Positions 10,767-35,967 of a stretch of DNA of 42,876 nucleotides are shown piece after piece (the stretch's first letter is position 1; the number at the start of each line of letters is the position of its first letter). A program made the translations under genes and the position numbers. The DNA lies in the NCBI GenBank assembly GCA_029240655.1, contig JARDZW010000005.1, positions 1 through 42,876 of the forward strand, read 5' to 3'. This DNA comes from Chloroflexota bacterium. GTDB taxonomy: Bacteria > Chloroflexota > Limnocylindria > Limnocylindrales > CSP1-4. Below the pieces are notes generated by a model. It saw only the letters and a list, made by a program, of their open reading frames with translations. It searched no databases and was not told the DNA's origin.

Positions 10767-11411
10767 GTGGAGCCGCTGAGCCTGATCCTCGGCGTGGCCG
10801 GGGCGGCGCTCGGCGTGGCGGCGGATCGTTTCGCGACCCGCTGGCCGCCACACGACGAAGACGAGCACCCACCGGGGCGGCGGGTCGATTGGCGAACGAT
10901 CCTGTGCGGGGTCGTCGGGGCCGTCGCGCTGGGGCTGCTGCCGGCACGGTTCGGCGGGGACCTCTTGGCCCTGGCCGTGTTCGGGGCATGGATCGTGACG
11001 CTGATCGTGGGCCTCGCAACGGATCTGGACCAGCGCCTGCTTCCCGATGAATTGACCTTGCCGGTCATCCCGATCGCCCTGATCTACGCCCTTTCCGGGC
11101 TCAACCCGCTCGTCGGCGCAGACGTGGCGCTGGCCGTGCTGGCCGCGCTGTTGATCCCGGCCGTCCTGTACCTGCCGTCGATCCCGTTCGGGGCGGGGGC
11201 GTTCGGGATCGGTGACGTGAAGCTGCTGGTCGGGACGGGACTGCTGCTGGGCGGCGATCGGGCGTTGGGCGGCACGATCTTCGGGTTGATCCTTGCCGGC
11301 GTGGTCCTGCTCGCGCTGCTGGTCACGCGCCGGATCGGGCGGCGGTCGTACGTGCCGTTCGGGCCCTTCCTGATGATCGGGGCGTTGTGGGCGCTGCTCA
11401 TCCGCGCGTGA
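10767..11411 (+). CDS. Prepilin peptidase (A24 family), short form without methylase domain
   Basis: Integral-membrane aspartic protease that cuts the leader of type IV prepilin-like proteins. The two catalytic aspartates are visible: one in ATDLDQRLLPDELTLP near residue 90, one in the GxGD motif FGIGDVKLL near residue 150. About six hydrophobic segments surround them. The protein (214 aa) lacks the cysteine-rich N-methyltransferase insert of full-length PilD, resembling archaeal and Tad/Flp enzymes or shortened PilD. The GTG at 10767 is chosen because the first membrane helix starts directly after it; the in-frame codons before that overlap the pepA stop. No pilin or secretion genes are nearby, so its substrates are encoded elsewhere. 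Confidence 0.85.
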   Translation: MEPLSLILGVAGAALGVAADRFATRWPPHDEDEHPPGRRVDWRTILCGVVGAVALGLLPARFGGDLLALAVFGAWIVTLIVGLATDLDQRLLPDELTLPVIPIALIYALSGLNPLVGADVALAVLAALLIPAVLYLPSIPFGAGAFGIGDVKLLVGTGLLLGGDRALGGTIFGLILAGVVLLALLVTRRIGRRSYVPFGPFLMIGALWALLIRA

Positions 11412-11425
11412 CGTCGCCGCATCGC

Positions 11426-11514
11426 GACTAAACGCGGACTAAACGCGCCCGAACCGTTGACACCGCTCGGCCCCGAAGCGCATCCTGTCCCGACGTCGCC
11501 CTAAACCGGTTTAG
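11426..11514 (+). promoter_or_regulatory. Regulated promoter with tandem CTAAAC sites and a LacI-like palindromic operator
   Basis: In a GC-rich setting this stretch holds a perfect 11-bp tandem repeat of GACTAAACGCG (11426-11436 and 11437-11447). It also has a perfect consensus -35 box TTGACA at 11457-11462 with CATCCT 18 bases later (11481-11486), and a perfect 14-bp palindrome CTAAACCGGTTTAG at 11501-11514, just after the predicted transcription start. The shared CTAAAC half-site occurs four times. The palindrome with a central CG pair and AAACCGGTTT core is the usual form of LacI-family operators, which often control starch and maltodextrin genes. The next coding text is a pullulanase C-terminal domain. 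The regulator itself is not in this window. Confidence 0.5.
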
Positions 11515-11563
11515 CCCCGACCCAGCACCGCCCTGCGCGGCCGGCCCCGACCAGACCCCGGGA

Positions 11564-11842
11564 TTGATCGTGATGCGCATCTCGGACAAGGTCGGCGCCG
11601 ACCTGGACCGCGACGCCAAGTCGCTGGTGATCATCTTCAACGGAAGTGACACCGGTCAGTCGATCAGCCTGGCCGACACCGTGAAGGGCCAGTTCAAGTT
11701 GCATGGGGTCCAACAGACCTCGGACGACGACGTCGTCCTGCAGTCCAAGTTCACCCAGAAGACCGGCACGTTCTTCGTGCCCGCGCTCACGACAGCCGTG
11801 TTCGTGGAGCAACAGCCCGGGCCGCCCGTTCGAGGGCAGTGA
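11564..11842 (+). pseudogene. Orphan pullulanase-type C-terminal domain (DUF3372-like); probable remnant or free-standing fragment
   Basis: The 92-residue frame matches the final beta-sandwich of pullulanase-type alpha-1,6-glucosidases. It has LDRDAKSLVIIFNGSD, then FKLHGVQQ, a DDDVVLQSKF segment and the closing TGTFFVPALTTAVFVEQ, all in the order seen at the end of that family. The homology continues a few codons upstream (GPDQTPGLIVM), before any start codon. The glycosidase catalytic domain, normally several hundred residues, is absent. Possible starts are TTG 11564, GTG 11570 or ATG 11573, with a GGGA at 11560-11563, so translation as a small protein is conceivable. Most likely an internal deletion left the old promoter joined to the last 90 codons. 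The nearby glgC fits a former glycogen locus. Confidence 0.6.
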
Positions 11843-11860
11843 AACCTTCGTTCCTGTGTG

Positions 11861-11888
11861 GCGGTGGGTCGTGACTGCGGCCCACCGC
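11861..11888 (+). terminator. Stem-loop after pullulanase relic
   Basis: Perfect 8-bp inverted repeat GCGGTGGG (11861-11868) and CCCACCGC (11881-11888) with a 12-base loop, starting 19 bases after the stop codon. No T-run follows. Confidence 0.45.
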
Positions 11889-11958
11889 ACCAGACCCCAC
11901 CTAACTTCCCAGGAGCACCCCTGACCTTCGACCCATCCAGTTCGGCAACCAGGCCGTC

Positions 11959-11964: not shown

Positions 11965-12147
11965 GGTCATTGGCGGTTTGGTTGCCCCTCGGGGTATCAT
12001 CCCCACGAAGCCGGAACTCAGATCGTCGTCCTGCGGCATGTGCCCGCTAATGGACGTCGGCACCGGCGGGCTAACCGTCGACCGCGCCACGGCCCCAGCC
12101 AGGCGCCGACCAACGGAGTTTGCTCGCACGATGACGCCGCCCAGGTG

Positions 12148-33459: not shown

Positions 33460-35967
33460 ATGGGTGGCCTCAACGCGCTCGCCTGGCGTGGCCTCCGGGC
33501 CCGCCCGATGCGGACCGGCCTGACCGTCGCGGGCGTGACCCTGGGAGTCGCCGTCCTCTTCGCGGGCCTCGCCACGAACGCCGGCATCGAAACGGCCGTT
33601 GACAGCGCCGTCGCAACGATGGTCGGGCGGGCAGAACTGCGTGTTGCGGCCTTCGGCGAGGACGGCCTGTCCCAGGACACGCTGGCCACCATCGCCGGGA
33701 CCCCGGGTGTGGCCGTGGTCGCACCCGCCTTCGAGCGCCGAACCTACCTGGGCGCCGAAGCCTTTGGCCCGGGCGATCCGCTGCCCCCGCCGGTGACGAT
33801 CGCCGGGATCGACCCCGCAGCCGAGGCGACGTTGCACGACCTCACCTTGCGCGCCGGAGCGGCGCTGAGCGGGGACGGTCCCAACGACGCACTGGTGAAC
33901 GCGACGCTGGCTCGCGAGGACGCACTCGCGGTCGGCGACATCATCGATCTCGAGACCATCGACGCGCCCGTCCACCTCCGGATCGTCGGGATCCTCGCGG
34001 GCGACGGACCATGGGCGGGAGGGGGCGGCCGAGCCCTCGTCGTGCCGCTCGAGACCGCCCAGGCGGCCTTCGCGGCGGACGGGCTCACCCGGGTCGACAT
34101 CGGGACGGCGTCGCCGGCGGCGGTGACGGATGCCCTCGAATCCACGCTCCTTGACGAGCCGTACGTCCTGTCCTCGCCGCAGGACATCGGCGCGTCGATG
34201 CGGGCCTCGACCGGTGACTTCGCCTCGACGACCGCGTTGATCGGCGCCATCGCCCTGTTCGCGGGCGCCTTCCTGATCTTCAACACGCTGTCGATGACGG
34301 TCGTCGAGCGCGTCCGGGAGCTCGGGCTGCTGCGGGCTGCCGGCGCATCACGGGGACAACTGACCTCCTACATCCTCGTCCAGGCCACGGCCATCGGCAT
34401 CGTCGGGTCGCTCCTGGGCGTCGTCCTCGGCGCGGCGCTTGCGGCGGGCATCGCCGCCTGGGTGCGAACGGTCGGAGCCGTGGCGCTCGGCGCTCCGGTC
34501 GTGACCGTCAACGACGCCCTGGCGGCGCTGGCGATCGGCATCGTGGTGACGCTCGCGGCCGCGATCGAACCGGCGCGACGAGCCGGTCGCATCTCGCCGG
34601 TCGAGGCGCTCAAGGCTCGCCTGGACCTGCCGACCGCGCGCCGAGCGCGGCTGCGCTGGCTCATTGCCGTGTTCGCGCTCGTTGGGGTCGCGGGCATGCT
34701 CATCTTGCCGCGCGGAGCCGATGAGACCGCCGTCGTGCGGGCCTTCCTCGTCTATGCGGTCCTGCTGGTCGCTGCCCTCGTCGTGCCGTTCATCCTGCCC
34801 GCCACGGCCCGGATCGCCGGACTGCCGTTCAGCCTCCTGGTCCGGTTCGAGGAACGCCTCGCGCGGGCGTCGCTGCTGCGCGACCGCAGCCGGGCCGCGC
34901 TGACGGTCGGTGCTCTCACGATCGGGCTGGCGATGATCGTGGCGCTCGGGGGCGTGGGACAGCATGCCCGGAATGCGGCGAGCGCCTGGATCGCCGACGT
35001 CGTGCCAGGCGAGCTCGTGCTCACCTCCATCTTCCCGCGTGGCCTCGACGAGCTCGAAGACGTGCTCGTCACGCCGGGCGTCGCCTCGGTCAGTCCGATC
35101 GGCTCCTTCGCCCTCGCCATCGATGGCGTGCGGACGGACGCCGTCGCGATGGTCGGCGGGGACATCAGGAACGACGGCCGGCTCCGGTTCGTCCTGGGCG
35201 GCCGTGAGCTGGCCCTTGCGGCGATCGATGCCGGCGGAGCCATGATCGTCCCGTCGGGCGTCGCGGCACGCGACGGCCTGGAGCTCGGCAAGACGGTCGA
35301 AGCGACGGCCGCGGACGGTTCCGTCCTGAAGCTGCGGGTCGCCGGCATCACCGAGCGCACCCTGCCCGGTCCGGCCGGTGAGGCCGTGATCGTGGGCTGG
35401 TCCGACGCGGAAAAGCTGGGCGTGGCCGGCGCTGATGCCTTCGCCGTGCGCTTCGTGCCGTCGGCGACCGCCGCCGACCGCGCGGAGCTCGCGTCCGTCG
35501 CGCGTTCGGTCGCGCTCGAACCGACCGCCCTCGGGCGCATCGAAGGCGCCATCGGCCAGGCCCTCGATCGCGTATTCGGACTGTTCGATGTCCTCGCGCT
35601 GGTCGCCGTCGTCGTCGCGGCCCTGGGCATCGTCAACACCCTCACGATGAACGTCTTCGAGCGAGTGCGCGAGATCGGCGTGCTGCGGGCGGCCGGCATG
35701 ACCCGTCGGCAGGTCTGGCGTTCGGTCGTGGTCGAAGCCGGGATCACGGGCCTCGTCGGCGCCATCTGCGGGGTCGTGGCCGGCCTTGCCGTTGGCGCCC
35801 TGATGGTCGTCCTGGCTGGCGGCCGCCTCGAGATCGCGACGGCCGTGCCGTGGCCGGCGGTGGTGGCCGCCCTGGTGCTGGGCGTGGTCCTCGCGATGCT
35901 CGCCGCCGCCTACCCCGCGCGCCTCGCCAGCGGCGTCTCCATCGTGCGTGCCGTCGGCTACGAATAG
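33460..35967 (+). CDS. ABC transporter permease, FtsX/MacB type (two-module)
   Basis: Partner membrane subunit for the preceding ATPase. An 835-residue protein with two FtsX-like modules. A first membrane helix near residue 17 precedes an extracellular region (about 45-250), three helices at about 260-375, a middle pair near 400-445, a second extracellular region (about 500-690), and three C-terminal helices at about 700-830. The motifs TMTVVERVRELGLLRAAGASR and MNVFERVREIGVLRAAGMTR, after the first helix of each bundle, are the conserved cytoplasmic coupling segments. Such pairs move lipoproteins, lipids or peptides or act as sensors of antibiotics; the cargo is not identifiable. No gap separates it from the ATPase gene. 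Confidence 0.9.
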   Translation: MGGLNALAWRGLRARPMRTGLTVAGVTLGVAVLFAGLATNAGIETAVDSAVATMVGRAELRVAAFGEDGLSQDTLATIAGTPGVAVVAPAFERRTYLGAEAFGPGDPLPPPVTIAGIDPAAEATLHDLTLRAGAALSGDGPNDALVNATLAREDALAVGDIIDLETIDAPVHLRIVGILAGDGPWAGGGGRALVVPLETAQAAFAADGLTRVDIGTASPAAVTDALESTLLDEPYVLSSPQDIGASMRASTGDFASTTALIGAIALFAGAFLIFNTLSMTVVERVRELGLLRAAGASRGQLTSYILVQATAIGIVGSLLGVVLGAALAAGIAAWVRTVGAVALGAPVVTVNDALAALAIGIVVTLAAAIEPARRAGRISPVEALKARLDLPTARRARLRWLIAVFALVGVAGMLILPRGADETAVVRAFLVYAVLLVAALVVPFILPATARIAGLPFSLLVRFEERLARASLLRDRSRAALTVGALTIGLAMIVALGGVGQHARNAASAWIADVVPGELVLTSIFPRGLDELEDVLVTPGVASVSPIGSFALAIDGVRTDAVAMVGGDIRNDGRLRFVLGGRELALAAIDAGGAMIVPSGVAARDGLELGKTVEATAADGSVLKLRVAGITERTLPGPAGEAVIVGWSDAEKLGVAGADAFAVRFVPSATAADRAELASVARSVALEPTALGRIEGAIGQALDRVFGLFDVLALVAVVVAALGIVNTLTMNVFERVREIGVLRAAGMTRRQVWRSVVVEAGITGLVGAICGVVAGLAVGALMVVLAGGRLEIATAVPWPAVVAALVLGVVLAMLAAAYPARLASGVSIVRAVGYE

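Follow-up and report, generated by a model that had tools for sequence, protein, structure and literature searches.

The probable promoter of a lost alpha-glucan enzyme gene, with its putative LacI-family operator, in a Chloroflexota genome

The segment 11426 to 11514 of the window (the whole stretch of 42,876 nucleotides analysed here, contig C159 of the Chloroflexota genome G000) is most likely the regulated promoter of an alpha-glucan enzyme that has been lost from this place: the LacI-family switch appears intact, and the gene behind it appears to have been deleted down to a stump. The features concerned are the following:

11426 to 11447, plus strand: exact 11-bp tandem repeat with a CTAAAC-N5-CTAAAC core at 11428-11444
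11457 to 11462, plus strand: -35 element TTGACA (position of TTGAC kept in 8/8 pullulanase promoters)
11481 to 11486, plus strand: -10 element CATCCT, spacer 18 (kept in 7/8 pullulanase promoters)
11501 to 11514, no strand assigned: putative LacI-family operator CTAAACCGGTTTAG, at about +9 to +22, with copies in the same genome and in relatives
11515 to 11539, no strand assigned: interval from promoter to remnant (operator end 11514, PF11852 start 11540) with the putative deletion junction
11540 to 11842, plus strand: pullulanase remnant, the last ~90 residues of Pullul_strch_C without a catalytic part (PF11852, TIGR02103)
11854 to 11893, plus strand: strong hairpin after the stop codon, without a T-run (-29.3 kcal/mol, z -3.6)

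The promoter and its operator

The individual elements described in an earlier note on this DNA are mostly as claimed there. Two adjoining copies of GACTAAACGCG fill 11426-11447, the sole exact 11-bp tandem within the window, for which 0.18 are expected; the 14-bp palindrome CTAAACCGGTTTAG lies at 11501-11514; and CTAAAC is present four times, twice on the plus strand in the tandem (11428 and 11439) and once on either strand in the palindrome interval (11501, plus; 11509, minus), every copy being inside 11426-11514. The -35 element had been singled out as the only perfect TTGACA of the window, which is wrong, as further perfect hexamers are found at 33599 and 39095, both on the plus strand. 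Perfect palindromes of 14 bp are not unusual as such in the window (10 observed versus 10.0 expected); one with at least eight A/T is expected 0.2 times per window, or about 0.0004 times per 90 bp (palindrome and tandem expectations are from first-order Markov resamples). From the promoter elements a transcription start is predicted near 11493; a generic scan for sigma-70 promoters did not call the -10/-35 pair at 11457-11486.

Judged from its sequence context, CTAAACCGGTTTAG very probably serves a LacI-family regulon as its operator. It is an even palindrome with a central CG, as expected of LacI-family operators, and a search of the whole assembly found copies with one to two mismatches in two other places only. 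At C128:8183-8209 two palindromes, 13 bp apart, are situated directly upstream of a gene for a LacI-family protein (Pfam domains PF00356 and PF13377; no NCBIfam equivalog cut-off is reached), on a contig that also bears ABC-transporter permeases and GH13 matches; at C38:2706-2719 a copy lies between the divergent glgA (TIGR02095) and glgP (TIGR02094), the products of which are glycogen synthase and alpha-glucan phosphorylase. The LacI-type reading offered in the earlier note is backed by these copies and by the sites in relatives; of the checks it had proposed, the search for the palindrome before other genes led to glgA/glgP and, in relatives, to giant pullulanases, and that for a LacI-family regulator led to the C128 gene with its own palindrome copies. 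Chance or a dispersed repeat was rejected as the origin of the palindrome, since its near-copies in the genome number just four, every one at a regulatory place. The shorter WAAACCGGTTTW, searched with two mismatches on other contigs of G000, is in no excess (10 versus 18 control matches per strand); its matches sit on C2, C83, C122, C156, C203 and C217.

Membership in a regulon is also established, at the level of sequence, by comparative genomics. AAACCGGTTYA is present in 75 of the 107 family genomes, with 93 matches on each strand, versus 12 and 9 matches per strand in 14 of the 107 for the reversed control pattern. Nearly all sites examined adjoin a LacI gene, glgA/glgP, a GH57 gene or a giant pullulanase; glgA/glgP, the pullulanase and GH57 are functionally linked genes with a shared site that is kept in relatives. 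Three matches inside unrelated coding frames were regarded as chance. Beside the LacI gene and the genes around it the sites are often 13-bp tandems; for overlapping sites of LacI-family regulators a spacing of about 13 bp is a known peak, and the arrangement is hard to reconcile with known structures (PMC4052901). An extreme form of the arrangement discussed there is found at G063:C111:10293-10329 and G065:C64:40225-40261, where three operator copies follow each other at a spacing of exactly 13 bp.

The enzyme gene in relatives and its remnant in the window

TAAACCGGTTTA precedes intact pullulanases in seven relatives. TTGAC precedes the operator core by 45-48 bp in all eight pullulanase promoters, and CATCCT is in place in seven of them. 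Three relatives (G024, G062 and G069) have the genes for an M17 aminopeptidase and the A24 prepilin peptidase first, followed by promoter, operator and an X25/GH13 pullulanase-like enzyme of 1,411-1,516 aa; the M23 peptidase then follows the enzyme in G024 and G069, and glgC in G062 and G069. The short contig of G068 has A24, promoter, operator and enzyme. The two enzymes scanned, those of G024 and G023, carry X25 domains, a GH13 catalytic domain and CBM20, and their N-termini suggest that they are secreted. An intact pullulanase in close relatives, which the earlier note had proposed to look for, is therefore found behind the matching promoter, in some cases with matching neighbour genes. A DNA search of the relatives with 11390-11860 as the query returned the promoter of G003, two short weak matches in G005 and G025, and nothing else.

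The window keeps the neighbours of the relatives' enzyme locus, and the gene body is absent at this locus in the assembly. No X25 domain was found in the G000 assembly, which, compared with the G024 enzyme, offers as its best hit a GH13 stretch of C128 with 41% identity, there being no other close copy. What follows the operator is a pullulanase C-terminal domain, as had been noted before: the ORF 11564-11842 (92 aa) matches PF11852 (Pullul_strch_C) with an E value of 2e-21. The homology begins at 11540, upstream of the start codon of the ORF and 25 bp past the operator, and extends over positions 76-164 of the 165 of PF11852 and 809-900 of the 900 of TIGR02103 (pullulanase-type alpha-1,6-glucosidase), that is, over the last ~90 residues. 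In contrast to a TIGR02103 pullulanase, the window has no catalytic domains, signal peptide or binding domains, and the remnant fails the curated cut-off of this family (72.8 versus 697.6 bits). It comprises about half of a beta-domain, without internal stops and with a GC content of 0.62/0.42/0.89 by codon position. The strong hairpin at 11854-11893 is possibly the terminator of the lost gene; a terminator scan did not call it.

Among the family genomes G000 is the sole carrier of PF11852 (1 of 107), and the domain is absent from both intact family enzymes scanned (G024 and G023); because of this the lost gene would have been either a longer fusion or a replacement, a point that counts against the present reading. 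A longer fusion is plausible, since a protein of Oscillochloris, outside the family (L081, 2,294 aa), has X25-GH13 joined to PUD-GH13-Pullul_strch_C; alternatively, a foreign pullulanase may have replaced the family enzyme.

The small ORF is most plausibly a relic. The earlier note had left the choice between a tiny gene, a relic and an untranslated RNA; the relic is favoured, and the RNA was rejected, as there is no Rfam match at E<=1 and the genus mates have neither operator nor remnant between the neighbour genes. In these genus mates (G002, G003 and G004) the A24 prepilin peptidase adjoins M23 with no operator between them, and the same holds for G008 and G034, which belong to another genus; since all five have no gene between the neighbours, loss of the enzyme appears to be common at this locus. 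G003 has the enzyme with a matching promoter on another contig and in other surroundings, the enzyme being split over contig ends. By its synteny and sequence the window looks like the locus after gene loss, with the promoter still intact.

We infer binding, repression and the effector, as well as a deletion that was a real and recent event, along the following lines. The promoter would have belonged to a large secreted enzyme degrading alpha-glucans, and a LacI-family repressor would control its own gene, glgA/glgP and the enzyme promoter. When inducer is lacking, a repressor dimer on CTAAACCGGTTTAG, downstream of the start, would block early transcription; the inducer, probably a maltodextrin-type sugar, would free the repressor from this site. 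The CTAAAC-N5-CTAAAC element upstream of the -35 element would be a second conserved input. The deletion would have begun within ~25 bp of the operator and left just the last ~90 codons of the enzyme gene, so that the intact promoter and operator would now lead into a non-functional stump.

Alternative readings

The tandem at 11426-11447 may, from its sequence and conservation, be a second conserved regulatory element, consisting either of LacI half-sites or of an OmpR/KdpE-type direct-repeat box. The earlier note had spoken of tandem half-sites; the repeats are real, but their identity as LacI half-sites is not clear. The CTAAAC copies lie 18 and 29 bp upstream of the -35 element in G000, G003 and G077, and the nearer copy is kept in G024. 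A second regulator is possible because kdp genes of relatives have a near-identical box ahead of them: CTAAAC-N5-CTAAAC is found in 17 of the 107 genomes, with one copy each, most of them in genus g3 and upstream of kdp genes; at L205 of this genus Pfam identifies KdpA, an OmpR-type regulator and a histidine kinase as neighbours. On the minus strand 11428-11444 reads TTTAGN-N5-TTTAGN, two 6-bp repeats with a TTTA core and a 5-bp spacer, which is the layout of the site of E. coli KdpE, of the OmpR/PhoB family (TTTATA-N5-TTTACA; PMC3264566). However, at the pullulanase promoters, where its distance to the -35 element is fixed, the box has an orientation relative to transcription opposite to that of the kdp case, and its CTAAAC exactly equals the half-site of the CTAAACCGGTTTAG operator. 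As the orientation is reversed and the half-site shared, the box may be read either way; that it is an OmpR/KdpE-type activator box and not a LacI element, in which case the promoter would join two-component and sugar signals, is a serious possibility, against which we nevertheless lean.

At L202-L212 of genus g3 a conserved CTAAAC[AG]CGG[CT]CTAAAC-like box, at ~1501 in most, lies upstream of an 89-aa gene without a Pfam family, a receiver-only protein and kdpA. It is a candidate KdpE site, of a kdp operon with an unusual leading gene pair.

The assembly of G000 is a draft of 2.75 Mb, 71.5% complete and in 231 pieces, for which reason the enzyme gene might be elsewhere or the junction misassembled. 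The organism would then have an intact pullulanase, and the contig would wrongly fuse the promoter to a pullulanase 3′ end, which we consider unlikely. The fragmentation of the draft speaks for such an artefact, as does the G003 enzyme with its two parts at contig ends, and another draft, G077, has a matching layout and could share the assembly fault. In this genome, of another genus, G077:C180:2807-3488 (L243) contains the matching promoter, the tandem repeat, the operator TTAACCGGTTTAG at 2879-2891 and then the C-terminus of the enzyme alone, that is, the last ~189 residues (CBM20 end) from ~2920-2937, without internal stops. Yet no long repeat is evident where promoter and remnant meet in G000, the locus is without the gene also in G002, G003 and G004, which indicates that loss is usual, and the junctions of G000 and G077 differ: they cut the C-terminal region at separate places, and what comes after the operator is dissimilar in sequence.

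The promoter could also still be at work, either driving the downstream M23 peptidase and glgC or serving the 92-aa ORF as the gene of a functional small protein. This is quite improbable. M23 and glgC are on the same strand, glgC functions in glycogen synthesis, no stop codon interrupts the fragment, and its GC content at codon position 3 is coding-like; on the other hand, A24-M23 is kept in G002, G003, G004, G008 and G034 where no operator intervenes, which argues that none is needed there. The fragment, moreover, ends before a strong hairpin and, being about half of a beta-domain, has neither a catalytic nor a signal part by homology to the pullulanase C-terminus. Retention of the operator for glgC was rejected on the same ground, the five relatives keeping the neighbours without it.

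Ahead of the M23 gene a stretch of ~150 nt (window positions 11990-12140) shows strong conservation in an alignment of six sequences from several genera, and it may represent a structured leader RNA. The window gave no Rfam match (E<=1), RNAalifold revealed no compensatory pairs for this region, and its single-sequence fold is not better than that of shuffles.

In both G000 and G077 coding homology restarts at most ~36 bp past the operator, and the two layouts may have a biological cause, be a coincidence or share an assembly fault. If both fusions are real, it is conceivable, as a very long shot, that the repressor-bound operator sets deletion endpoints or that selection keeps promoter and operator without their gene as a repressor decoy; regulated genes would then be lost repeatedly in a way that spares their switch.

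Known systems and significance

A literature search for AAACCGGTTT gave the operator of PtxS, a LacI-family regulator of Pseudomonas, as the nearest experimentally known one; it reads 5′-TGAAACCGGTTTCA-3′ and is located at ~+5 to +23 at kgu and gad (PMC5902321). Like CTAAACCGGTTTAG, it is an even palindrome with a AAACCGGTTT core, just downstream of the start and also present before the regulator gene; its outer bases are TG...CA, whereas those here are CT...AG, and the targets of PtxS are 2-ketogluconate genes and not alpha-glucan and glycogen genes, the likeness being one of operator sequence and placement. MalR-type maltose/maltodextrin regulons (PMC4052901) are alike in the proximity of the LacI gene to sugar ABC-transporter and GH13 genes, in autoregulation, and in an even palindrome with central CG and sites 13 bp apart, but motif and lineage match no regulon described there; neither did a literature search find a regulon matching the motif.

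The regulation is of a known kind; what is new is the lineage, and the locus is in an unusual state of decay. The case provides, by comparative genomics, an operator, a candidate regulator and targets in the alpha-glucan use of one bacterial family, with a locus apparently caught after loss of the enzyme gene and with its switch still intact. It also illustrates that a conspicuous promoter in front of a very small ORF need not signal a new small-gene or RNA system, and can be what is left of a very large gene.
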